Source: Paramacrobiotus metropolitanus
Taxonomy: Eukaryota > Tardigrada > Eutardigrada > Parachela > Macrobiotidae
Assembly (NCBI RefSeq): GCF_019649055.1
Contig: NW_026570269.1
Span: 930,001-994,000, forward strand
Direction of reading: 5' to 3'
Length of the DNA: 64,000 bases
The notes below the pieces were generated by a model. That model ran no database searches, had not been told where the DNA came from, and saw nothing but the letters and a program-made list of their open reading frames with translations. The translations under genes were made by a program, and so were the position numbers. Below are positions 19,634 through 63,725 of the stretch, piece after piece; within the stretch, counting starts at the first letter, position 1; every line of letters starts with the position of its first letter.

Positions 19634-22600
19634 ATGGCCACAAACAACATTCAAGTGGTCTTGGAATTAGGCCACACAGCCCTGTGTCGTCAAGAAGGTA
19701 ATTGTAAGCATCAACAGATAAACGAAATTCCCTATCGCGCTTAGATAGGCACTGAATTTTGCTCTCCAATGCAGGCCATTTGACCCACGACTGGGTGGTA
19801 TTTCTGCGCGGACCAAAAGAGAATCCCAGCGCCATCCAGACCATCATCCGCAAGGTGGTCTTCACGCTGCACCCGTCATTCCAGAATCCGATCCGCGTGG
19901 TGGATAAACCTCCGTATGAGATCCGCGAATCCGGTTATGCGGGTTTCATCCTACCCATTGATATCTACTTCAAGGGACGCAGCGATGACATGCCGTACCG
20001 GATCCGTTTCGATTACGATCTAACCATTCCGCCTAACGAATCCATCAACAGTCTGCAGACGGAGAAGATCACCTTCCGCAATCCCTCGGTGGACTTTCGG
20101 AGGAAACTGCTGGAAGGCGGGGGATGCGGGGTACTGGAGACGGATCTGGACGCCGTGATGCCGGGCAAACGGTTGGTGCAGATGTTCAAGAATCCGGCCG
20201 CGGGACACGGGATGCACGCCGGGAAGCTGGAAGGGATTCCGTCGTTTGAGGAGTTTGCCCGGCTCTTCAAGATGACGCTGTCTTCCACGCAGAAAAATCA
20301 AGCGAAGACGGCCGACGGAAAGCGCATACGGAAGGCCAGTAGTGGGTCGAGTGCCAGTTCGACGGCGGGAGAGAAAGCCAAGCGTCTGCTGGCGCCTGCG
20401 GAGGAAAAGGCGAAAAGGGAGAAGAACGTGGAGACGACGGCCGCGGCAGTGCGAAGCCCGGTGCCAAATGCGCCTGTTGCTGAAAAGAAAAACGAAGGAG
20501 AGAAAAAGGCTGCTGCGCTGGAGTCAGTGGGGAAAACGGTGAAGATTTCCAAGGGGGAAAATCATCGTCCTCCAGGTGAGCGAAACGTGGATAATCAATT
20601 CTTGTACGAACATTAATTTTCCGCAGAATTAGTTTCCTTTTTTCATGTAATTTAGCGATCGAACAACAGCAGTGATTTTTAAATGGGGTTTGCGCTAGGA
20701 AATCCTCTTTTTTGGTTTGCTTATGCTTGCTCCCAATGGGTGGAAAAAAGTGTTTTGCTTTGTGTTTTATTTTATCGGTTGTTAAATTTCCAAGTTCAAG
20801 AATGATTCAAGAATTTTTCTTTTATTCGTAATAATTATCTCTATCAGTCTTTCAAATTTATTGAATGGGGATTCAATGAGACCCTCCTAACTCAAGTTTT
20901 ACTCTCCATAAGGAAAACGCGGTTGGAAACATTTGATAGGATAATTATGGTTCTGCAACAATTGCTTATCTGTGAAGTCAGGCTGGTAATGTTTGCGATA
21001 ATGAGTTGACGATAGAGGTACTGATATGCGATGGCGCTGCGATTTAACATGGAATTAGGCCTATATTCCGTATACGCGCTTCCGATCTAAGTCGTCCCGC
21101 ACTGTTGTAGCTATTGATAGGGCACTATCGAGGTTTAGTTTGTGTCAAATTTGACTTCGATGTTGTTGTAATGCCCCGTAAATGGTACAATAATTACTGA
21201 AAGGCTCATGGATCGTTTCTTTAAATCTGTTCTTTTAAATTGCAGTTAGTGCAAAATGGTTGTAATAGCATTCTAGTGTGACAAAACTTTATCAGAAATG
21301 TTTTAGTGAGGATTCTCGAAAGTTGATGTTTTCATGTTTCCTTTACCGTGAACGTCTTCATTCTTTGATTAACTTCGGTAAAATGAATTGAATTTTATTA
21401 TCAACAGACATGCTTGCTGAATTTTATTTCCAATAAGTAAATAAATGCGATTACAATTGTACTTGCAGGCTGTGGTAATGCCAAAATAGTTGTACATAAC
21501 GTGGACTTGTTTTTAGTTTAAAGCACGTTCTTTAATGTCTTAAGTGAAGTTTAATTGCGAATATGAGGCCATGAGCAATGCGGAACGCCACATCGGTTGT
21601 TTTGCTATGTATCGTCGCAGCCCTGGACGCGCCAATAATTATTATTGTTTGTCAATTTGCCACTAATCTTCTTAATTGTAATTTAGGTTCTATCGGTGCA
21701 CTACCAGCGAAAAGTGAAGTGCAGCGTCCAATAAGCGGTTCCGACCAGCCGCTAAGCAGCAAATCCAATAGAAAGGGTAACAAAACAGCATTATCTCCTT
21801 CAGGCATCAACACATCGGCAGCAAGCGCAACCAGAACTGCCAAGTCCGTACTGCTGCAACCTGATACGAACACCTCCAATCACTCTCACACTGCTCAAGT
21901 GCCTGCACCATCATCGAACAGTTATTCGCGGCCTGATAATAATGTTAATATTCCCGCGGAATCCGATGTATCACCATCGCCACACAACGTTGCCGCTTCC
22001 TCAGCGGATAGTGTGGCTAATCCTGCATCCGCTTCCTTACTGGGCATTATGACTCCGCCAAGTAGGAAAACCACACCGAGGGGCTCCAGCCAACCGTTAA
22101 CACCTCACACTCCCTACTTGTCCGATGAAATGAATGACGAAATTCGGCAGCAGACGAGTGTGCCGCGGATGTTGTCACCGTTATCGCCACCGGAAGACTA
22201 TCCCAATGATGGTTCATCCGTGGATGAGGATTTAGCGCTGACTCCTGGTAAGTTGCCCGTGACCGTTCGACAGAATGTTGCTGATACTTCAGTATGGCAG
22301 CTTTTTTATAATTTTTTTTTTTACTGAGAGAAATACGTATGGAGCTTTATTTAGCTTTAGGCCACTGCATTTTTTAGGCCCTCGACGCGATTCTACGGGC
22401 TTCTCTCCCGCGCAAGGATTGCCAAAAGATGGTTCTTCCCTTCATAATCCTGACAGTTATCTCCTCGATCTGACCAACGATGGCTTCATCTCCGGTATAT
22501 CCGATCCTAGTGACACATCTCCTGAACCGTCCCCGCAACACCGACCACCGGTGAAATCTAAACAAAAGAACTCTTCTAAAACCACACCAGCAACCGTTAG

Positions 22601-22958
22601 TCTCAGCGCAGTGGAGTCGGATTTACGCGATGTCCAGATTAATCATAAACCCATCAGTCCGGTGGATGGACGAGACGATGTAGCATTGGACCCCGTTAGG
22701 GTGAACGATATAAAGCCGCGGGCTCTGTCGCCGGCTGAGGAGTTGGAGCGGTATAAGCTGCAGGTGGTGCTGAGCCAGTTGACTGATCGCACAATGATTC
22801 AAAGTATTGTGGACGTGTTAGTCCCTCTAGGAGCCTTCAATGTTGACGAAAAGGAGGGGGTTCTGACGTTTAACACCTCCATGCTGGAAAAGCCGACCGT
22901 GGAGATTATCAAGAAATTGGCGCGGTTTGAGGAGTATACCTTTGAAACGGAGGAATAA
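19634..22958 (+). CDS. MLLT3: AF9/ENL (MLLT3/MLLT1) YEATS-domain protein, complete
   Basis: Nuclear reader of acetylated/crotonylated histone lysines that recruits the super elongation complex and DOT1L; the single insect orthologue is ear. Exons: 19634-19697, 19775-20575, 21687-22247, 22378-22958, all phase-1 joins, 668 residues. The YEATS domain (about residues 5-140) keeps THDWVVFLRGP, the acyl-lysine aromatic cage (His-Pro-Ser-Phe in LHPSFQNP and Tyr in ESGYAGF) and VRFDYDL-like strand sequence (IRFDYDLTIP). A Lys/Ala-rich basic linker and a Ser/Pro-rich disordered middle follow. The last 70 residues, from LERYKLQVVLSQLTDRTMIQ to the end, match the AHD (ANC1-homology) partner-binding domain. 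A poly(A) signal AATAAA lies near 23124. An additional small exon inside the 1.1-kb second intron cannot be excluded. Confidence 0.93.
20576..21686 (+). other. Largest intron of the AF9/ENL gene
   Basis: Donor CCAG|GTGAGC at 20576 and acceptor TTTAG at 21686, both phase 1. I see no conserved exon, repeat or RNA gene inside. Confidence 0.6.
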
Positions 22959-24450: not shown

Positions 24451-25894
24451 TCAGTAGAATTTCTTAATAAATTGACAATGTAGGTATTCGCATACATAAA
24501 CACGGAAAATCTTATTCAAATCATTAATGGTGTCATAATGAATGTTTGCCAGGTTATCAGAGTTCTTGTGCCATACGCTGGGAAATGGTGTCGAAATTAA
24601 GTGCAATACTCTTACGCCCTTCTCCACAAACGGCCGATAATCGTCGTCCACCCAGGTCTTGGCCGGCAATGGGTCGTGTCAAAATACACCGATTTTCTTC
24701 CCCACGTTTTTATCAAACTCAATTGCGTCAGCCGTGTCTCTGCCGCATTCAATCGGGCAAACTGTCCGCGAGCATTGTAATAGAAATTCCGCAATGTTGT
24801 GTCCTTTGTACCCAACAAATCCAACAAAACTAGCAAATCCATGCTATCCAGTTCGTCCATGCTGGCATCATTCGGAGCAAAACGGTTACGAGTGTTTTTC
24901 AGCTTTTCCGATAACTTTCTGGCACCGTACAGGGAATCAGTGGCGCTCCACTCGCCGAACGCCTCTTCGCCGTCGAGAAACAGTATCTGTAAGGTCACAT
25001 CGAGTTTCTTATCGCGCTGTTTCAGGAACGGTTGGAGAACGGCCGCGGTGTCGATTATCTGTGCACACGGCACGGCGGAATCCGTGGCTCCGATAAACTG
25101 ATAATATGGATCGTATTTGGAGTCGAAATGACAAGCCAGAACGAGACGCCGCGGCGCACTGGGATCCAGTGTCGCGTAGATATTGGTCATGTTGCGAGCT
25201 CCACCAAACCATGCCGGTGGACTCGCCATGAAATTGTGCTGCTCCACAGTGTATCCTAAACCTTCCATTGTTGATATCAAAAACTGTCAAAAGCGTTTTC
25301 TTAGTGTAATACACGCAAGTTTACAGGTGGTATGCACCATGCACAGTGTTTTGATACATACACTTAAATCAAATTAATCTCGCAGTAAAACTTAGATTCT
25401 ATATTTAGATTTTACGATTGTTTTTCGATTAGTGAAAAACATGTTAATTGAGCTAAATACTTGTGTGTTGCAAATATTTTCTGGTAAATATTGTACTCGT
25501 ACCTTTGTACTTTTGCATTATTAGCACTGCCAGAAAATCGCGGAATGGCGATCGGTTTCAGATAATTCATAAAGCGTTCCTGATTTGAAAGGTCACTGAG
25601 GATCCTGAGAGTGTCCGCATCGTCCACGGTGGCTGGTGCGTGGACCTTCTGTGCCGCCACCCATTCCGGTGCCGCACGCAGCAAGGAACGAAGGACTTTA
25701 CGCAGTGTTGCTTTGTCCTCATGGACGCTATGTTCTTGCGGTCTCAGCTTCTCGGAGTTCTCCAGATCGTGTTGGTACGTGTGGGCACGAAGAGACGACG
25801 CACATAATAAAATGATTATGATCCTGCAACACCGGACGCAGCTGTTTATTTCACTTCGCAGTAGTTTTACTTCGCTATTTAGTTCACTTCGCAT
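24451..25894 (-). CDS. QPCT: Glutaminyl-peptide cyclotransferase (glutaminyl cyclase), with one frame break
   Basis: Zinc enzyme of the secretory pathway that converts N-terminal Gln of peptides and proteins to pyroglutamate. Exon 1 is 25894-25511 and exon 2 is 25283-24451, phase-0 join (AAA|GTACAA to CAG|TTT). The start is followed by a short polar stretch and a hydrophobic run, CCRIIIILLCASSLRA, read as a signal peptide. Conserved elements: LACHFDSKY, the zinc Asp in GATDSAVP, FLDGEEAF with the catalytic and zinc-binding glutamates, SLYGARKL, LLVLLDLLG, DDD before YRPF, VLHLIS, and the zinc His in SVWHK. At about 24650-24670 the frame changes by one base between YFDT and the PLPAKTWVDDDYRPF stretch; both sides align to the same family, so this is an indel error or a recent mutation. 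All active-site residues remain encodable. Confidence 0.9.
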
Positions 25895-32048: not shown

Positions 32049-35000
32049 ATGGTTGAGGTAGACACGATAGAGAAGACGGTGTCACACAGCACCATAATTA
32101 ATGGACACAATGACACGTCTTCCATCACCGTCCAGCATACGGATGTACACGGAAAACACGATTATCTTGCTCCGAATAATCACCAACTGAACTCTCCAGG
32201 ACTTTCTCAAGCGCCGGTTTTTGTTGGCGGAACTATTCCTGCAAGCAGTTTTGAAAATGTTCCGGGAAATATTATCGGGAATGTGGTACCGGAAAAGAAT
32301 GGCATACGCCATGAAGACGATGTTGCTGCATCATGGGAAGACGAACGACAGCACCCTGGCGGTGAGATTTCAAATGCAAAAGATATACAGTGAGCTGTTG
32401 GCTGAGGAATAGCTATTAAATCCTAATTTCGGTTAACTGCGTAAAGAGATAATCAAGAAAAACAGATATAACCCTTACTAGCACTTGCAAGTCTTAAACT
32501 GACGACTAAATACGCACGTTGCGACCAAAAATACAGTATTACAAATTTAAGGCGCAAATAACGCTTGATAAACTCCCTAAGTACTCATGTAGTATTCATT
32601 TCCTTGCGCATTTTGAAGATAAAACTTGAGATTAATAAGTAACACAATATTACTTCCTCGAACAGATGCATCCGCTGAAAAGAATACCGGGGCTAGCGAA
32701 AAGGAGACAGAAAATCCGAACGTGGTAAACCTTCCTTCGGTTGTATTCCTGCCAGGACACAGTCCAATGAGGCACTCTGTCCCAGATCGAGCAAACACCA
32801 ACGGGCCGCGAAAGGAGCAAGTTCCCGGTATTTCCAGAACCGTTAATATACTGTAATGAAAAGGCTAAAGGATTAGTATTTTCTATTGATGCAGGCGTTG
32901 AATTCCGCAAAATGTTGTTCATATTGTTAATAATTACAAATCTGTAGATCATGAAATATTAAATAAACTACTTCATTTGCTCGTACTTATTTATGTATAT
33001 AGATAAAATATTTTGTTACTATCAAATATATAATATGCATGTTATTATCAGTACACACTATACAGTATACGTATGCTCGCATGCATTTTGCAGTATTCTC
33101 CTTTTCGCAAATATTTCTTTCTGCAGTGGGATCAGCCAATTCACCAAATAAGAATGGTTTTCTGGGCGCAGTTTCTGCCAGTTCAGAAATTCCACCACAT
33201 TTTGCTCCATCACCTGAAAATGCTCCACAACTCTTTGGCGTCCCTGCTGCGATAACCGGGGAAAGAAAAGGCTACTTTCAAGGGGAAGCGGTAACGACAG
33301 AGCACACGATTTCCGCTCCTGTTCAAAATGCCGCCGAGACTTCAGAAGCTTCCAGCTCTTTCCCAGCGCATCCGCCTAAAATCTCGAACCAACAGCCACC
33401 GCCCGGTTCAAGGATTTTTTATCGCGACCATATGAATATTCCAAATATGGGTGGAGATAGGCCGGCAGGCTTCGGGAACACTAATGCCCTCGGGCAGGAG
33501 AGCGATATTGGTGGCCATGTAAACAACATAAATACTGCAGTCCAGCCTGGCAATGCGAGGCCGACAACAGTGGCAACTGCTGCGAATGCCAACCAGCAGG
33601 AATCACCATATTCTCAGCGCTACGAGACTGCTGTTCCTTACGTTAGCGGTAAACCTGAAGCACTGGAAGACACTAACAGCGTGGAAATTAAAAATAACCA
33701 ACATGGAAATATGCCAAAGCCGATAATGACAGAACGGTCAGTTCTAGAAAAGCCGCAAGCAGTGCGCAAAATTGGGAACATTTCGCAGTTTGCTCACGAT
33801 GGTTCACAGCCTGAACTGGTCAAGCCAGCAAATGTTCGTGAAGATAACGGCAAAGCGTTTCCGGTTCCTGTAACAAACAAAGAAATACCAGAAAATGCAG
33901 TGGACGCGCCTTGGCATGCGTCAAACCAACCAGCAAAATCTGAATCAGAACCGGTAAAAGGGCATGGCCATCGGGATCAATTCCATGCCATACCTCCAAA
34001 GAATCCAACACATGGTATAGCTTACGACAACGGCAAACTAACAGCGCACGAATTACCGCCGGAAGGAAAGAATATGATATCGGACGATTTCAAAAACAGT
34101 GCATCAAATCTGCAGCCAGAAAAACCTGTCCAGAAGGGGGGATTATCAGAGAGAGAAAATGCAATAAGTCATCCTGTTGCTGAGTTTCCAGTGCAAACTG
34201 TAGGAACGCTAGTGCATACAGAAAATACTAACAATGGGAACAAAATTTCTGAGCCTCCAAGGCAACGCCATCCTTATCACCACAAAAACCTCCACGGATT
34301 CAACGAACATGCCCAAAATTTTCCAAAACACGATGAAGTAGAGCTAGACAGAAACACACCTGATATCCCGCCTGGAGAAGCAGCTGTCGATGAATTTGCC
34401 GATCATGCACTGGGCACCGGTAATCAGGAAAAGATCGACCAAAATCCATCACGAAAAGAAATTGGCGACGGCGGAATGTCACAAATTTTCGATGCAAAAC
34501 GTGCTCCCCCTAAAACCACGCAACATGATAGCCGTCCAGATGAAAACAAATTTTTAAACAAGTTGCCCCAAGGCGGAAGAGAAATGATACCCGATTACGG
34601 TAAGAGTGGCAAACAGACACCGTCTGCGAAACCGCTAGTTTTACCGATGTCACTTACTTCGCCGCTAGAAAACGATAATTTCTGGCCGGAAAAGAAGATT
34701 AATGACAAAACTGCTCATCATCATAAATCCCCTCCATTTGATAACGCTACATCGGCTGCTGGGCAAAAACCGCATCATAAAGTCAATAATACTGATTTTC
34801 CAAATCAAAATCAGCAAACTGCAGAGTTTTCAAATTTCCCAGGGGAAATAGGTATAGCGTATCTTAACGCAGACCATCCTACAGCGGATAGTATGCCGCA
34901 GAATAATGCGCGACCTTCCCGAACGAAACCCGAAGTTTCTTTTGTCGACCACTATCATCACAGGGCCAGAAATTTTCCATCCGATGAAGGGATTGCGATG

Positions 35001-38000
35001 GATCAAGAGCACAAACCAAGCCACGACAAGAAACCTGTTGCCGCTGAGCCGCAGTCTGAGACACAACCGGGAGTGCTGGCATTTCCCCAGTTGTACCCAG
35101 TCGGCCCCAAGCTCAAAATACATTAAGCACGCAGTTAGCATCGGTGAAGAATGTTCCGCTTTTCGACGATCATCATCACAGAGCGCAGAATAATCAGGAC
35201 GATGAATTATGGAACGAACGACCGCACAGTGTCAGGGTTCATTATCCCAAAAATCAAGAGCGGGCGAAAGGTCAACATGTCGCTGCAGCAATTTTCCCAA
35301 CCATATCGGACCATGAACAACTGAATCGCCCATTTGGTGGCGATACCGAGCAGTACAACAATGAATTTGTGTATTTTCCGGATAAAAATCTGAGTCAGCG
35401 CAAAAAGGGCGAAATTCCGCATGAGACGGGTTTTCCGCTAGGGCATACGATACATGACGAACCCGATTTATATCGTCATCGCATTAAACCGAACTCACCG
35501 TCAGGAAGCCAACTCGACCACGATGTGTTTGGAGCAGGTGAGAAAAATACTGCAGCACTGGCCGGAAGACAAACGAATAAACATTTTGCGGCTGCTCCAG
35601 AGATGACTTTTCCTCCACCACAATTTTCCGAATCAAGCGTAATTGGCAACAACGAAGGCAACAACTTTGGGCAGGAATCTGCATCAAACATCTGGGATGA
35701 CTCTTTTCATCTCGAGCCTAAAGGTAACGCTAAAAACAGCTTGGCCAATGAAGCGTGGACTGGAACTGAAAATCGTAAGCTGGCCAACAGTCATCCGACT
35801 GTTGTACCTGGTGCTACACTAACCGGCTATGACTCTGATCAAGGAATTCAACCAGAGGAAGCTGATTTTGATCACAGTGACGAAGAGTTTAAAGATATGC
35901 CAAAGGAAACTGGTACCATGAACCAAAACGTACTCAGTAAAAGATTGAGTAATATGCCACAAGATGGAGCTCGGCCACTTGTTTTACCGGCAAACGAAAA
36001 CGGCAACGTGAATCGGCATCGAAATCTGGCTTCGTCGGAACCAGCAGGCGAGCACGATACGGTTGGTGTGATACCAACCAATGAGCTACCCAGAAAATTC
36101 GCGAGAAATGACGAGGAATTCCAAGAAAGCAACCGTCCGTTTTTAGGGGCTTTTACTCCAGCAGTCAGAGCAGACGCGTATCAGCACAAACCCCACGGCC
36201 AGAGTGCTAATTACAAGCCAAACCTGTCAGTTAACGAAGAAGAAATTTCGCCGCCTCCGCCAATTACATCCTTTGGGAATTGGAATCAGAGTAACGGCCA
36301 TCGCACTACCAATTTTATTCCAGAATACAAGCAGCAACGACTAAGTTTTTCGCGACCTTTACCAAATGACAATAGTTACATGAATTCCAATGAGTTCGAT
36401 CGCCCTGCATATAGCGTGCCAAATGCCGACCACTATCACCACCGTTCGGTCGCAAGTGACAGGCAACCATTCAACGGGATAGGAGACAACAGCAAAAATT
36501 CCCATGCGACAATGGATGGAAAGGGTCAAAGCGGGCCAAAAGGGACAGTCGTATTGCCAATTCCCATCGCATATATGCCGGCTATCGAGCAAATGAACGA
36601 CTCGCCATATGTAAATGAACCAGTTGATCATTATAGACATCGGCATGCGAAACCTATTACTGGCTGGAAAGCTCCTGAAATGGACTACGAAGAGATTCCT
36701 GCAAATAAGCAACTTCGGTTTGGGCCGATAGCAGGGCATCGCGAAGATACCGAAGCAATGCCTGAGGCATCTGAAGATCAAGGTTCATTAGTTTCCATGT
36801 CGGCTTTGCCGCTTTTCCCTCGTGGAAATGATAACGCTGAATATCACACACCAAATCCTCAATCACGGCATTTTCCAAACAAAAATGATAATTACAGCGA
36901 TGCGAAAGCGATCCCAGTACAGCCAGTTCCCCAGACAGCAGATATATTCAAGCTGCCCAATGAAAACCAGAACGACAAGGACGCGCAACATGGTCAGAAG
37001 CTTCTTCATCCACCCCGACATATGGGTCCACCGACTGACCCTTATCAGCACAAGCGCAATCTCAATGGCGGCGCTAGCCACCCTGCTTTCGTAGCCAACA
37101 ATGAACCGTATAGCGAGCCTGATAATTTAGCCAACCTAGCCAGATATCCTGCAGATTACAGCAACGCACATGCTCCTCCGGATCGTTCCTTTAAAATGGC
37201 TCCTGATCAGTTAAAAAATGTACCTCCTGGCCAAAGACTTCCTGACAAGCCTGGTGCAACTGAGAACAGGGCTGAAGAAGAAACTCCTGATCAGCTACCA
37301 CTAACTCCGCATCACCATCACCAGCCAATGTCCAACTTCATGCTCCAGAACACGGGACTACCTAATCCCAGTGGGGACGAAAACATCAATACTGCAGCTG
37401 ATGAAAGAATGGAAAACTTAGGAACACCGAATCATTTTACGCAGCCGGCGGGATTTTCACCAGATCCGACAGCTGACGAAGAATTACAGCAGATCGGCTC
37501 GTCTAACAATTATCCAGCTGCAGGCACTTATAAACATCGTCCTCATGGTCAACTTTTGGAGAGTTCGTTACATGAAAATACCCAACCGGAAGGCGGTTCA
37601 TCACACATTAACGGTTACCCATTGTCAACTCACAAAGCAGGACTATCCGCCTTTCCACCAAACATTTATAACTCGGAACATCCAAGAGCTAATCCAAATT
37701 CTCACCACGAACAGGGAAGGACGATTACCCCGCCTCAATTGCCGGCAGGTCAACGCTATCCAGTTTCTCCCAGGAAACTTGAAGAACAGCCAGCGGTCGC
37801 TCACGAGCCACGGGCCTTCGATGCGTCTCTTTCATATGGATATCAACATATACCACCTTACTTGCACCATGGTCAGGGAGAGAACTTTGCTGATTATCCT
37901 ACTGACTCCTTCGGCAAAACAGAAAAAACAAGAAATACAATTTTTGCGCCTATTGTATTTCCGCAATCAGCCGCACCTTCTGCTGGTGAAGCAGATTCCG

Positions 38001-41000
38001 AGCCATTGTTTTCGGAGGAAGATTTTCCACATTTTCAGCCAAGGCCGGGAAATGTGCCAGTTAATCAACGCGGACCACAAGACGCCAAACCTGCGCTGGA
38101 AAACCCGAATTATTTCGATAACGAAATGCACCACGTAAACCAAAGACTGAACACTGCTCCCTCCGCTCGACCTTGGGACGTGCATGGTGCTACTGCGATA
38201 TCTGAAGAGAACGGCCATCCGCCATTCGAGCCTGACCATAGAAAATTCGTCGTCTCACCGTCAGACGAACACTGGGCACAGGATCATCCAAGAAACGTTT
38301 TCGTTGGCCACACCTCTCCAGACTATACCAAGAATATTATGGACAACAAATTTCGAGATATCGATCGAGAACCAGGATATCAGAGTCCGGGCATGCAAGC
38401 AGAGTACCCGAATCCAGAGGTGCCCAAAGGGGCTTCAGGACTAGAAGGTCATGGGATGTTACCGGATAAAGGGAATGTGGACAGATTGTATGGAGAAGAT
38501 AACCCAGTACTAAGGAATCCTGATCCGAAATTCCACCCGTATCGTCAACCTTTCAATGAGAAAATTACCTGGACGCAAGCTCCAATAATTAAACCGGTAG
38601 ATTTCGGTGGACATCCATCCATCGTTTCCGCGTTCCAGGGCGATGACAGCGCCGGTTTAACTCATGACCGTCAATCAGGACAAGATCTTGACCGCACGGC
38701 AGACGCTGCGTTTCAAACTGCACCGAACAACCGAGTGAGTCCCCGCGATGATGTGAAAGGTCATAGTGGCCGAGCGAAGCCAAACAATGAAGATGCGATC
38801 GGCAGACACCGAGACGCGACTCCCTCGCAAAAAGCTGATTCGAAAACACCACTCGCCGGCGGAGCGTTCTTCCCTTTGAAATCTTCGAATACGGAAAGAG
38901 CAAAGTCCCGTCGCTCCGAACCTGAGGCAGACCAACGACCAGTCTCTCCCGCATCGGCTGGTGGTGATGCAGCTGCGTATCAGCCGTACGCGTATACCGA
39001 GTACCCAAATCCTCCCCCCGATGCCACGGCTGCATGGGGGAATAAAACGTGGAAAGGTGCTTTACCAGCACTGGCAGCGATGTCGTCCCCTTTTGTAACT
39101 GACCTGTACAAACACAATCCAAATGCGACCTCCATGTCCAGTAAAATGGACATGTCCACACAGTCCTCACAGTCGCTCCAGGAATTAATGCAGTGCTCCA
39201 TGAGCCACAGTTCTACCGTCGGAACTTCCATGATTGGCTACAATTTAATGGTGTCCTTTGTTTTATTTTTGGTAGGTGATAAATTAAATCCATACAAACG
39301 TGTTTCATTTTGAACTTAGTGACGCTTTTAACTTGAGAAATTTATTGCAGATTGGAATGGCTATATTTTATTTTGCAACAAGAGGCGCCAATAAACAAGA
39401 GCGAAAGCAGCTTCTGGAGCGACGCATGAGCACTGGCTCTGAGTAAGTGGACAAAGTAAAGGTCATCTTCCGTAACAGTAGTTCCGTTTCCACTCCTAGC
39501 GATCCGCCATGCTTAATGGTTATAAGTATTAATAAAAAAATTATCCGAATTTGGCTTATTCAGACTAATCATTTCTGTTTGCAGCTGGGTAAAAACATTT
39601 TATTCTCAAAAGATGGTAGAAGAGAAACCAACCGGGGTGACACGAGCTACATCGACAAGAACCAGCTCGGAATCTGCTAGCGATGTTGTCAATGATGCGT
39701 CTTCAGCGGAACTCGGATTTTTCCTTCCCGTCTGTAAGAAACATTCAGTCAACAAGCTAGCAAAGTGAATATTAATCGTTTCAACGTTTGTTCCGCAGTT
39801 TGGTTTTGGAGAACTGAAGAGATGGAGCGACGCTGTGGCAAATCGGCAACTCAGTATCTTCGGTTTTCGGAGTACTTGATTGCCTATGCATCCTTAGTGG
39901 TCATTGCTTCCACGCTTATCATTCTCCCGATCAATCTTCACGGATCCTTGATTACCACCAGGTTGGAGTTTGGCCGGACAACTATTATCAACATTGATCC
40001 GCAGTGAGTTTGATAACCACATCAGAAGCTAGTTGAGTTAAAAGTGTCAAACTATCGCACCTGGATGCTCGAAACTGCTGTAATGTTATTTATGGGGAAA
40101 TTGCAGATCAAATATTTTATGGATCCATGTGATCTTTTCGATCTTTTTGTTTCCGCTGGCGTTATTGTTTGCCACGAGGTTCGTTCAGACGTTTCGCGGG
40201 TACGGTAAACCGGATCGGTCAACAAAGACATTGATGATAACTAACTTGGGAACGCGGTACGCGTCGGAAGACAAAATCCGGAGACATTTCGAGTAAGTTT
40301 GCTAGATCTAACATGTAAGTCTACTCCCTATATTTAGAGTTTGCTTTTGCAGTTCTTATGTACGAGTACCATCTCTATAGCTAAACATGTACAAGTAAAC
40401 GTAAGACGTTTTGTATTAATATTTAGAGGGGCTTTGTGTTTAGGGAGGGTCATCCGGACGTTGAAGTCTCCAAGATTAACCTATCTTATCATACTAATAA
40501 ACTTCACCGGTTGGATAAAGAACTGTAAGTTTTTTAGTTTAACCGGCACATATTGTGCGCACCATATGTCAGGTTTTTATGGGAATTTTCGCTAGCCTAA
40601 CCAATATCGACCGCAAGTATTTATTTAATTTACTACATGAACCTTTTCGAAAGCGTACCAGTTACTGGTGAAAAGAATTGTTGTTTGCTGTTAATACGAT
40701 GCGTTTGATCCAGTAAGCATATTTCTGTTAATTACAGACAACTGTGCATCTCTTGTTCGAAGTACTATGAGAAAACTTTAAGACCGGGGTCGGAGCCGCC
40801 GGTATATTCTAGAGATAACTTGTGCACGCGATGTTGTTGCTGCTGCTGTGACGTTGCGGTAAGAAGCCTCGTCTGGAATAACTCTGCTTTTAAGAACGCT
40901 AATTTTCCATTTTTTCCACAGATTGATGCTGTTGAATATTACAAAAATCGAGCTGCAGAGCTGGAAATACGGATTGAACAACTGATTGATCGACCCAGAC

Positions 41001-59535: not shown

Positions 59536-60702
59536 TTAAACCAAGATCATCGTGATCAGAAATAAATAAATGCTCAACCTGCTGACCGCTTTGTTTATTC
59601 TGGAGGCAAAACTGGAGCTTCCACGGTCGGTTGAAGAAACGGTTGGTTCTGGTAGTTGCACCCGCTGTTTCACTGGGCTGGTCATGTTTTCCTGACCCGC
59701 CGAATCAACCGGCACAGCCGACGAAAGTGGCACTCTACTGTTTACAGTCAGCTGTTTGGATGTCTGTGCAAAGGTCACGGTTGTCGTTGTGCTGTCGGTG
59801 GTTGTGCTCGGTGGCACATAGGGACACAAGTCCATTAACAATCTTTCGTCCAAATTTTTCTGCACTGCCGATCCGAGAACATTCAAATGGCAGATCGCAT
59901 CGACTCGACAAAAGTAAACCGTTCCGGACATTTGATCTATGTAGTTTATCCCCTCTCCGGCCCATACTCTCCGGTGGCCGTTGCGCAACCACTCGCTCAA
60001 CATCCGAAATCCGCCGGCATCGCACGAACAGTTGAGTGCCGACTGAAAAATCCCAAAGCATTCCAAGTTGGTAAGAGAAAAGAACAGATTGGGGTCAAAC
60101 ACGGCCGTAACTGGTAAGTGCTCGAACTGCAATGCCCGTAGATAATGTAAGCCATAAAAACAACCAGCATCCATTGGCATTAATACACTGTCATAACCAT
60201 TACGCAAGAATGATACATCCAGAATTTCTAAACTGCCCAAATCGGCAAACGGACTATCTTGCTCGTATGCGCACAAGTTTTCCGGAGATATATCCTTTAT
60301 GGTTAAAGCAATTAGGCGGGAAGCAATAGGCGAAAGTAAATGGCGGTGCAATGGGAAAAATACTTGATTTATATACAAGGAGATATTTTTTTGGCAGTCA
60401 TGCTGCAAATAAAATGCTAGACTTTGTTGCAAAGCGTCGTACGATGGATTCGTACAAGTAATGGCATGATAATCCCGGAGAGTATTGGCCGAAAACATTG
60501 TTTGCAAGATGCACTCTGGCTGCGAAACACTGCCTGGTAGTAGTGCAGCATACTGAGAAGAGCAGAGTAACCTTTCTTCCGGTCTGTGTGTATTATTAGT
60601 AAGAATCAGGTGATAATCTTCAATATGATCGCTGTACACATATAAACCGGCATTTCCGCAATACAACCCGATGCAAAATACTAACAGCCGGCATAATTCC
60701 AT
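59536..60702 (-). CDS. Secreted or GPI-anchored LRR-like protein, paralogue B (intronless)
   Basis: A single 388-residue frame. The signal peptide is MELCRLLVFCIGLYCGNAG. The middle shows the same order of elements as paralogue A: SYDALQQSLAFY, LRNG/FADLGSLEILDVSFL, LRALQFEHLPVTAVFD, then LNCSCDAGGFRMLSEWLRNG and VYFCRVDAICHLNV, aligning with CSCDNNDPGHWLHTWL and FFLCEVKIKCKV of paralogue A. A Ser/Thr-rich region (TTTDSTTTTVTFAQTS) precedes a C-terminal hydrophobic tail (LSIYLFLITMILV) that ends at the stop, as in GPI-anchored or tail-anchored surface proteins. Role unknown; a surface-exposed glycosylated protein is the best guess. Confidence 0.65.
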   Translation of the reverse strand: MELCRLLVFCIGLYCGNAGLYVYSDHIEDYHLILTNNTHRPEERLLCSSQYAALLPGSVSQPECILQTMFSANTLRDYHAITCTNPSYDALQQSLAFYLQHDCQKNISLYINQVFFPLHRHLLSPIASRLIALTIKDISPENLCAYEQDSPFADLGSLEILDVSFLRNGYDSVLMPMDAGCFYGLHYLRALQFEHLPVTAVFDPNLFFSLTNLECFGIFQSALNCSCDAGGFRMLSEWLRNGHRRVWAGEGINYIDQMSGTVYFCRVDAICHLNVLGSAVQKNLDERLLMDLCPYVPPSTTTDSTTTTVTFAQTSKQLTVNSRVPLSSAVPVDSAGQENMTSPVKQRVQLPEPTVSSTDRGSSSFASRINKAVSRLSIYLFLITMILV

Positions 60703-62186
60703 GACAGAAATTTTGGACGCTTTATAACAGATACGTATGATAGTTAATAATTTATATGATCTGGATCATTACGCACGGGCATTGGTTAGGTCATAAAATC
60801 CTGCGTGTGCGGACCGGATAAGCGGCATTTGTGGAATACGTTGGCCACGGCTATCTATATACAGCACCATCCAGCTGACATTTTTATTGATGATTTTATG
60901 AAGAATGTTATGAAAAACTCGTTTTTGTCAAGCATCATAAAATGTCGAGGGACTCTGTTGGACTAAGAATGATTAGTGTGCACTGTACATTTGACTGTGT
61001 AATGTAATTTCTCATCCTACCGTTGCTGCCGTCGACAACATTAACACGCCATTGCTTAGAGCGGACGTGAATGTATACATAAGAGATGTATGGGCATATG
61101 CTGCGCATGTCATCTGCGTAGTCGTCACTTTGGTGGAGGAAGGAATTTTTATTCGTACTTGTGCTGTAAACTGACTAAAAATTGTGACGGAGGGATGTCG
61201 GAGCAATAAATAAACTATTACAAGTGTAATAATAATTGGCTTGTACTAAATGATCCTTGTACTGTACATGTGCTGAATGATGCACTTTGAAGATATGCGA
61301 AACGAAAGCGCTAATATTCTACATGCGCCACTGAATCGCGATACTTGCATCGCCCTAGTGCAATAGATATCTAAATAAATAAAGCTTCTACAAACTAACC
61401 AGTAATTGTTTTCTATTGTGTAACGTATGAAGTACTGCAAGTACTTAATAATAATGTTTGATATAATTTTTTATATAACCTAATTATGGTTTGCTTGACT
61501 GTCATGAGTACGTGATCATTGTCTAGCAAATTTCCGAAATTTTTTATTATCATTATCATAGAAGAATTCCCATGCGCATTAATTTTTGCTTACTGTTTTT
61601 GTCTTATTAGTCATAGTAATTATATCAATCACTGTGAAAGGTGCGGTAAATAATGAATTTAACAATTACAGGTGCAAATTACTCACTGAATAAATTATTC
61701 CGAGAACGTTTCCGACGTTCGAAAACACAGTCATTGCCAACCAGTAGAAGTATAACAAATCCCTCCATTGCTGAATGCTATTATCCGTGTACAGAGTACG
61801 TATAGCTTGATCCCGATAACATGAACCGATCGCGAAGATAAAAATTGCATTGTGTGTACTGTGTAGTAGCACCAAAGGGGACCATTGAACTACAGTAAAC
61901 AGTTTCACCGGTTGCTTTTCACCAGTAAACAGTCTAGCGCTAATGATCGGCTGATCTAACATCTTCCGTATTCGCACTATTTAGCTGTACAGTCAAAATT
62001 TACCACACAAAATATACAAAAGATTTGTCACATAAAATAGCGCTTCTGGTTTTGAGGGTACTATGGTTTTTGCAATGCGCAAACCCCGAAATCATATTGA
62101 TATTTCTCTAATTCTAGCATAGAACATCATTATTGTTTTTTTATTGGGTATAGAATTAACAGGGTCCGATTCTCGACTTGTTGGAA
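60703..62186. other. Divergent gap between LRR-like paralogue B and the avidin gene
   Basis: No conserved ORF is recognised. It should hold both promoters. Confidence 0.4.
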
Positions 62187-63725
62187 ATGGATCTTTTTTT
62201 ACTGTTTATTGCGTTGTCTGTCAGTCTGACCACAATTACGGCACATCAAGAATCAAATTCCCTCAAAGATTTGTTATCCGTAAGCCTGACCTTTCTACAT
62301 TATTGTTAACAGGTCTGGGATTTACTGTACGTGAAGTAAAATAATTATCTTAATGATAGTTAAATTATACGGAATCTTTAGAGCGGAAAATCGAACCGTG
62401 CAACTAACGCCGCTTGTTCAGATATCTCCGGAAACTGGTACAACCAACATGGATCGGAAATAATTTTTACTCCTGGTGCCAAATCTTCACTTTCTGGAAC
62501 ATTTGCTTCCACTGTTAGCCTTTACAAGAACAAAAGGCCCACCGCAGGTAGTAACCGAAGTAAAATTGTTAAAGCATCATCAATAGTGTGCAGCGGAAAG
62601 AAGTTCAGTGTAATGACTGCATTAGCCTACATTTGTTACGGTTAGAGCGAAGACGTTTACAAAGTCAAAGTTTGCCCGTGCATAAGCAGTTTAACTAATT
62701 AATTTAATAATTAATTAATTTATTTACTACGCATACCACTGTACACAGCACCATCAGGAAAGAAGGTTGTAAATTAGAATATACACAGTAAAATTTATTA
62801 TGACCTTTTATCATAATGCGAAAAACGCTGGGGTGCATACACGTGGAGGTGGATTAAATGAATGTGCAGTGCGAATTTTGATAAGATATTATTGTGACGT
62901 TCGAATTAACTAACTGCAAGCTTAAGCTCGCTTTATATGCAGATCCGGTGAACGGAAAGCTGGTTGGGTATCTCCAAAGGGACGGTTCATTCGGATTTGC
63001 CGTCATTTGGGTACCATAATTACGAAATGAGGAGGTAAAAAAAGTTCAGCAAAACCCATATGCACAGTTTTTTATATCGTAGGACAACGCGTCTAACCAG
63101 ACCACAGCTTATTCCGGAAATTGTAAGTACTTTAAAGTTAAATTTTTGCAGTAGATTTGGTTTTTGGATTAACCAACTTAAACCCTAATTACAATTATGC
63201 TTCGACGATCGGCAATGTGTGGTAATTCACCCGGCGATGGCGAAGCAATTGCCCTACAGTAGCCTTAAGCTTACACAAAACTAGGTAGGTATAACATGTA
63301 CAGTATGCGGCTTTAGATCTGTACTTAGTTGTACAGTGTGCTTTCGCGTATTCGTGTAAAACAGTTTTGTGCACTGTCGACTTAAAACTGAGTTCAAAAC
63401 TGATGATTGATTATCATGGCGTGCACAAAAAAGTCCGCTATTACAGAAATTTTGGGAATAACACTAGGCGTCTCATAGAACGCCCTAATCTTGAAAAAAT
63501 GTGTAGGTTATCCTGATGAAAACGGAGAAATCCTTATAGCAGCATGGCATCTTGCTGAAAAACAACATTCCATCGGAGATGCATGGAAAGGTTTTAGGTA
63601 CACACCACATACAGACGATATTCACTATAAACGGAACTGCTTCACTCTTACATTTCGCTTTTGTGATTTTTAGATCGGGGCAAGATATTTTTACAAGGCG
63701 CAAGCGGCTCCACCACTTCAGTTAG
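62187..63725 (+). CDS. Secreted avidin-family (biotin-binding) protein, complete, six exons
   Basis: Predicted to bind biotin outside the cell. Exons: 62187-62279, 62382-62547, 62943-63010, 63083-63122, 63507-63597, 63674-63725; every phase closes, 169 residues. Exon 1 is a signal peptide (MDLFLLFIALSVSLTTITA). The β-barrel follows avidin order: CSDISGNWYNQHGS, SLSGTFASTVS, FGFAVIW, NQTTAYSGNCYPDENGE, ILIAAWHL, GDAWKGFRSGQDIFTR. Compared with streptavidin, the contacts Asn23, Ser27, Ser45, Val47, Trp79, Thr90, Trp108, Leu110, Trp120 and Asp128 are present; Tyr43 is Phe, Leu25 is His, Ser88 is Gln and Trp92 is Tyr (Phe in avidin). The Cys before the WYNQ strand and the Cys in SGNCYPD match the chicken avidin disulphide. 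The basic tail (RRKRLHHFS) follows the last strand. No single frame covers more than about a third of it, so simple ORF searches miss it. Confidence 0.93.

Follow-up and report, generated by a model that had tools for sequence, protein, structure and literature searches.

The window analysed here, 64,000 nucleotides of the genome of the eutardigrade Paramacrobiotus metropolitanus (Tardigrada, Ecdysozoa), carries on its forward strand an avidin-family gene of six exons (62187..63725), which we name Avd1. Its 169-residue product keeps 8 of the 11 compared positions at which streptavidin contacts biotin, and it belongs to a family of avidin genes in this animal whose pockets have changed differently from gene to gene. 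The window corresponds to C49:930001-994000, on a contig of 1.04 Mb in a genome assembly of 169.8 Mb and 533 contigs.

Gene structure and fold of Avd1

The five introns of Avd1 are all GT–AG, with phases 0, 1, 0, 1 and 2, and splicing leaves a single open frame of 169 codons plus the stop. A sequence-only reading of the window had proposed an avidin-family gene with six phased exons, and its start, end and exon boundaries proved correct to the base. The spliced product agrees in all of its 169 residues with the NCBI model ‘streptavidin-like [Paramacrobiotus metropolitanus]’ (P0001) and matches the Pfam Avidin profile (PF01382) at 1e-20 over profile positions 2–116 of 116; at 74.7 bits, where 24 is the cut-off, and over the whole domain, the match is not a chance one. 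Avd1 is already publicly named in NCBI, and avidins are reported from lancelet and sea urchin (PMC8033661); the gene extends a known family, with a comparative set around it, and does not represent a new type of system. Among the matches listed for the open-licence PMC literature, judged from the search listings, none was a paper on tardigrade avidins, and a term search of the main text of the P. metropolitanus transcriptome paper (PMC11191345) gave 0 occurrences of avidin, streptavidin or biotin.

Exon 1 (62187..62279) holds the start codon, a signal-peptide-like N-terminus and a linker. Residues 1–19 are hydrophobic by eye and a structural model places a helix at residues 2–20, and the putative signal peptide of the sequence-only reading is supported by inspection and by this helix; the product is predicted to be secreted. 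Strands 1–3 lie in exon 2 (62382..62547), together with Cys43, Asn52, Ser56, Phe72 and Ser74, the last four at streptavidin positions N23, S27, Y43 and S45. Exon 3 (62943..63010) encodes strands 4–5 and Trp109 (W79), and exon 4 (63083..63122) encodes Thr117 (T90), Tyr119 (W92) and two sequons, N111 and N114, within the loop between the Trp79 and Thr90 positions, which by analogy may lie near the exit of the biotin tail. The codon of Cys123 is split by intron 4. Trp136 (W108), Leu138 (L110) and Trp149 (W120) follow in exon 5 (63507..63597), and exon 6 (63674..63725) provides Asp157 (D128), most of strand 8 and the stop codon. The predicted structure is an eight-stranded avidin barrel.

Three genes and their biotin pockets

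Searching the P. metropolitanus genome with the Avd1 protein gave further matches on contigs C31 and C253. Two more genes could be spliced by hand on C31, each into six exons: Avd2 (~757.2–758.4 kb, forward strand) and, ~12 kb away, Avd3 (~770.0–771.3 kb, reverse strand), which are equal to the NCBI ‘avidin-like’ proteins P0003 and P0002, respectively. All five intron phases are alike in the three genes, and in the protein alignment introns 2–5 share their columns; the linker that contains intron 1 varies too much to be aligned. With Avd3 and P0005, a related metagenome protein described below, as queries, the genome gave no further avidin gene except a chance-level piece on contig C5 (E 9.6), and the count is at least three, as the genome search scores only the best candidates. 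A scan of the genome by Pfam family gave no hit for avidin, nor for any of its 14 controls, and so carries no weight for a gene divided into exons.

Second copies of Avd2 and Avd3 are present on the 92-kb contig C253 (C253:43-56 kb, loci L015 and L016, against C31:757-771 kb, loci L013 and L014). Matching pieces outside Avd2 are 88–98% identical between the two contigs, identities that make C253 either an allelic haplotig or a recent duplicate. Identity is 80% over most of Avd2, so that divergence between the contigs is highest at an avidin gene.

These paired copies allowed selection to be estimated for Avd2 and Avd3. The ratio of nonsynonymous to synonymous divergence (dN/dS) in the avidin core was 0.10 for Avd2 (dS 0.225) and 0.12 for Avd3 (dS 0.056), and the avidin domains of both genes are under purifying selection. 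The N-terminal parts were freer (0.59 for Avd2; 1.53 for Avd3, from very few changes).

We compared the 11 streptavidin contact positions over 41 aligned rows. Four of them (N23, S27, W108 and W120) were invariant in 41/41 rows. Avd1 departs from streptavidin at Tyr43 (Phe), Ser88 (Asn, or Gln, depending on the placing of a one-residue gap) and Trp92 (Tyr). The sequence-only reading had called the pocket largely intact, with Phe for Tyr43 and Asp at the Asp128 position, and all of this holds, although the changes at Ser88 and Trp92 had been missed. Avd3 keeps 10 of the 11 contacts, Ser88→Ala being its only change, while Avd2 carries Ser88→Thr, Trp92→Tyr and Asp128→Ala in both copies. Phe occupies position 43 in 8/41 rows; position 128 is Asp or Asn in 38/41, which makes Avd2 unusual. 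In streptavidin, Y43F costs a small part of the binding energy and D128A a large one, and on these grounds the predicted order of biotin affinity would be Avd3 > Avd1 > Avd2.

Beyond the 11 contacts, the lining of the Avd1 pocket differs at Leu25→His, in the loop that follows strand 3 (where Leu and Tyr take avidin positions 39 and 40) and at Ser101→Glu (avidin numbering); His at 25 also occurs in 16 of 18 other animal-side rows (as grouped below). The intermonomer tryptophan (avidin W110, streptavidin W120), which in known avidins makes a contact with the neighbouring subunit, is present as Trp149. Both members of the proposed Cys pair were found (C43 and C123), with the refinement that the first Cys has C-x4-G spacing, one residue farther from the Gly-x-Trp than the C-x3-G of chicken avidin.

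Origin of the tardigrade avidins

Vertebrate avidins (chicken avidin, xenavidin 2uyw, zebavidin 4bj8 and BBP-A 2c1q) share 22–34% identity with Avd1 in structural alignments. Avd1 differs from them in having Asp rather than Asn at 118 and Phe rather than Tyr at 33 (the Asp128 and Tyr43 positions of streptavidin), and its first Cys lies one residue farther N-terminal. With streptavidin itself (Streptomyces avidinii, L031) it has in common Asp128, Ser45, Asn23, Ser27, Thr90, Trp79, Trp108 and Trp120; streptavidin lacks the Cys pair, and its Tyr43, Trp92 and Ser88 are altered in Avd1.

Also close to Avd1 are an avidin-like protein from Glandiceps talaboti, a hemichordate (P0017), and proteins from short contigs (P0006-P0010, P0013-P0016 and P0018-P0026), which like Avd1 have a WYNQHGSE-like motif and a GQD.FTR-like C-terminus and mostly begin with a hydrophobic stretch. 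Their identity to Avd1 is 22–30% in the multiple alignment, and in many of the unnamed ones there are additional Cys residues and the loop that follows the second Cys is longer. P0018 and P0021 carry the avidin domain behind a Cys-rich N-terminal region, and the Pfam match of P0018 covers the avidin part only. P0005, a protein of 207 residues on a metagenome contig of 1,643 bases, has 46% identity to Avd1, C-x4-G spacing and Phe at Tyr43; unlike Avd1, it has His at Trp92, keeps Ser88 and has a longer insertion before Thr90. P0005 probably comes from another tardigrade. Avidins of Burkholderia and Xanthomonas plasmids (L046 and L047) have the C-x4-G spacing of Avd1 but are two residues shorter between Trp108 and Trp120, and fall on the prokaryote side of the tree. 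The Burkholderia glumae plasmid gene (L046) has, in one record, a type I polyketide synthase gene on one side and a transporter gene on the other; 37 Burkholderia plasmid records matched.

Two trees were built. The first had 46 rows, with 19 of 28 prokaryote loci; L025, L026 and L027 (from the organism of L024), L032-L035 (further Streptomyces loci) and the fragments L043 and L045 were left out. The second had 35 rows and 116 core columns, with L031 entered once, as SA, and was built further without L040, L041, L044, P0018 and P0021 (long-branched or two-domain) and without P0006, P0007, P0008, P0010, P0014 and P0015 (close relatives of retained rows). Neither tree contains Bacteroidetes avidins. 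For counts by group, the rows comprise 5 of the tardigrade group (4 from P. metropolitanus, with Avd2 entered twice, plus P0005), 18 other animal-side rows (2 named and 16 unnamed, the latter labelled from the tree and from likeness to Glandiceps) and 18 prokaryote-side rows (16 named, with P0011 and P0012).

In both trees a branch separated the prokaryote rows from the tardigrade genes together with chicken avidin, the Glandiceps protein and the animal-like unnamed proteins (support 98/95 with 46 rows and 98/96 with 35), and in the absence of P0011 this support was 99/94. P0005 joined the tardigrade genes at 100/99. In approximately unbiased (AU) tests, a grouping of the tardigrade avidins with streptavidins was rejected (p 0.025). 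Grouping them with the Cys-bearing Burkholderia/Xanthomonas/P0011 set was not rejected (p 0.124; 0.097 without P0011), nor was joining animals with that bacterial set (p 0.091), holding the non-tardigrade animal rows together by themselves (p 0.213) or holding the tardigrades with chicken avidin alone (p 0.357). Two avidin genes lie on contigs labelled archaeal (L023 and L037; Methanoperedens and Nitrososphaeraceae metagenome-assembled genomes), labels that may be binning errors. A plasmid search with the Avd1 protein gave 2 of 72,556 records at E ≤ 0.1, both from Streptomyces at E 0.04, and a pattern search of viral contigs gave 53 matching stretches, none of which was a relative.

Exon number and the last intron were compared with vertebrate genes, in which zebrafish and chicken avidins are described with four exons (PMC3811995, PMC1082904), giving three introns against the five of Avd1. 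The last exon of zebavidin is 42 bp, so its last intron falls some two codons downstream of that of the tardigrade genes, whose intron 5 lies within the codon aligned with avidin Arg114; the zebavidin exon sizes as published add up to 460, which three does not divide, leaving the phases unsure (PMC3811995). The closeness of the last introns is suggestive only, and introns do not settle the origin.

Two discrete characters point opposite ways on origin. A Glu directly after Ser27 is found in 5/5 tardigrade-group and 17/18 other animal-side rows and in 1/18 prokaryote-side rows, whereas C-x4-G spacing joins 5/5 tardigrade-group rows to 3/3 Cys-bearing prokaryote-side rows and occurs in 0/18 other animal-side rows (16 have C-x3-G and 2 lack the Cys). 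The latter character would fit a horizontal gain from a bacterial avidin near the Cys-bearing Burkholderia, Xanthomonas and P0011 proteins, with introns acquired later, as would the motif CDDISG common to P0011, Avd2 and Avd3 and the AU values for the bacterial groupings; the missing Bacteroidetes avidins, which are on record in the literature (PMC8033661), and several long end branches, chicken avidin and P0011 among them, also leave room for it. The Glu character, the well-supported animal-side placement and the rejected streptavidin grouping stand against such a transfer, and we judge it unlikely. Descent of the tardigrade avidins from an animal lineage is the likely alternative on the sequence comparisons. 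The sequence-only reading had asked for a phylogeny with bacterial and animal avidins and had left ancient transfer and retention both open; that balance has tilted towards an old animal lineage, with the Cys-bearing bacterial grouping still compatible with the data. A wrong gene model, a pseudogene or contamination by foreign DNA, whose bacterial form that reading had argued against, is extremely improbable: the six in-frame exons have canonical splice sites, an identical model exists at NCBI, two further genes have equal intron phases, and the 1.04-Mb contig also carries, within the window, a gene with YEATS and ANC1 domains. We rejected contamination or mis-splicing of Avd1 on the exon structure, the NCBI identity and the phases of the sister genes.

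That neighbour, by look an ENL/AF9-type gene, has open frames with a YEATS domain (2.8e-24) and an ANC1 homology domain (1.3e-7) at 19756-22955 on the forward strand. Elsewhere in the window are a Peptidase M28 domain (24612-25283, reverse strand, 1.9e-15) and two long overlapping open frames of 707 and 1417 amino acids (33003-39313, forward strand); for the second, one 500-residue piece was compared with Pfam and gave no match. On the reverse strand, ~1.4 kb upstream of Avd1 (59536-60765), a 409-residue, leucine-rich-looking open frame with a signal-like N-terminus likewise had no Pfam match. Among the proteins listed (1, 12 and 20) by protein searches that need shared five-residue words, no avidin orthologue of Hypsibius exemplaris or Ramazzottius varieornatus appeared; coverage of these proteomes is unverified, and absence from them is not shown.

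Possible function and significance

We favour, with moderate confidence and by analogy with known animal avidins, the reading that Avd1 is secreted and, outside cells, binds free biotin and withholds it, which would protect eggs or body fluid chemically. Biotin would be enclosed by an eight-stranded barrel bearing the avidin Cys pair, its ureido ring held by Asn52, Ser56 and Ser74 with Asp157 and packed by Trp109, Trp136 and Trp149. The last of these would come from the neighbouring subunit, which implies a tetramer or at least a dimer. Without the Tyr43 hydroxyl and without Ser at 88, binding might be weakened to the nanomolar or sub-nanomolar range, and for this reason we propose that Avd1 binds tightly yet can release its ligand. 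Of the three, Avd3 would bind most tightly, and Avd2, lacking Asp128, would be the weakest or would take another ligand. Microbes or grazers that need outside biotin would then be starved.

The analogy draws on known animal avidins being egg, gonad or stress proteins, and stress- or egg-linked expression would be expected from amphioxus, fish and chicken. In amphioxus, avidins increase under bacterial or heat stress and serve as opsonins (PMC8033661); zebavidin is highest in female gonads, and its biotin binding is weak for the family (PMC3811995). Several points weigh on the other side. Zebrafish with an avd knockout are reported to develop normally and to show no added sensitivity to Streptococcus agalactiae (PMC13425791), which leaves a defence role of animal avidins unproven. 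Avd1 departs from streptavidin at three of 11 contacts and at further lining positions, and dN/dS covers only Avd2 and Avd3, Avd1 having no near-identical copy. The loss of Asp128 in both copies of Avd2 hints that biotin may not be the only selected ligand.

A rival reading is a division of roles, in which Avd3 would bind biotin while Avd1, and above all Avd2, would be biotin-weak and serve another small ligand or a structural purpose, as has been proposed for the avidin-like domain of sea-urchin fibropellin. The pocket changes do differ per gene, and the constrained core of Avd2 (dN/dS 0.10) indicates that the gene with D128A is not decaying but maintained as a protein. Trp79, Trp108, Trp120, Asn23 and Ser27 are kept in all three genes, however, and would have hardly any purpose unless biotin or a similar ligand were bound; Y43F, found as it is across the alignment, need not abolish binding. 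We regard divided roles as doubtful beside the secreted biotin-withholding reading.

More tentatively, selection may have retuned the pocket of this family gene by gene (Y43F in Avd1, D128A in Avd2 and a near-intact Avd3), giving one animal a graded-affinity or ligand-switched set. Eight tardigrade species, P. metropolitanus not among them, are reported to lack NF-kappa-B, intracellular Toll components and most Imd genes (PMC7056985), and such animals may perhaps rely on secreted chemical defence. For work on P. metropolitanus, endogenous avidins could disturb biotin-based labelling. Most work on avidins concerns vertebrate eggs and bacteria, and what these proteins do in nature is still debated; the tardigrade family offers a test case from moulting animals, its three genes differing in their pockets at known hot spots, and it bears on the question whether animals inherited avidins long ago and then lost them many times, or received them repeatedly from bacteria.
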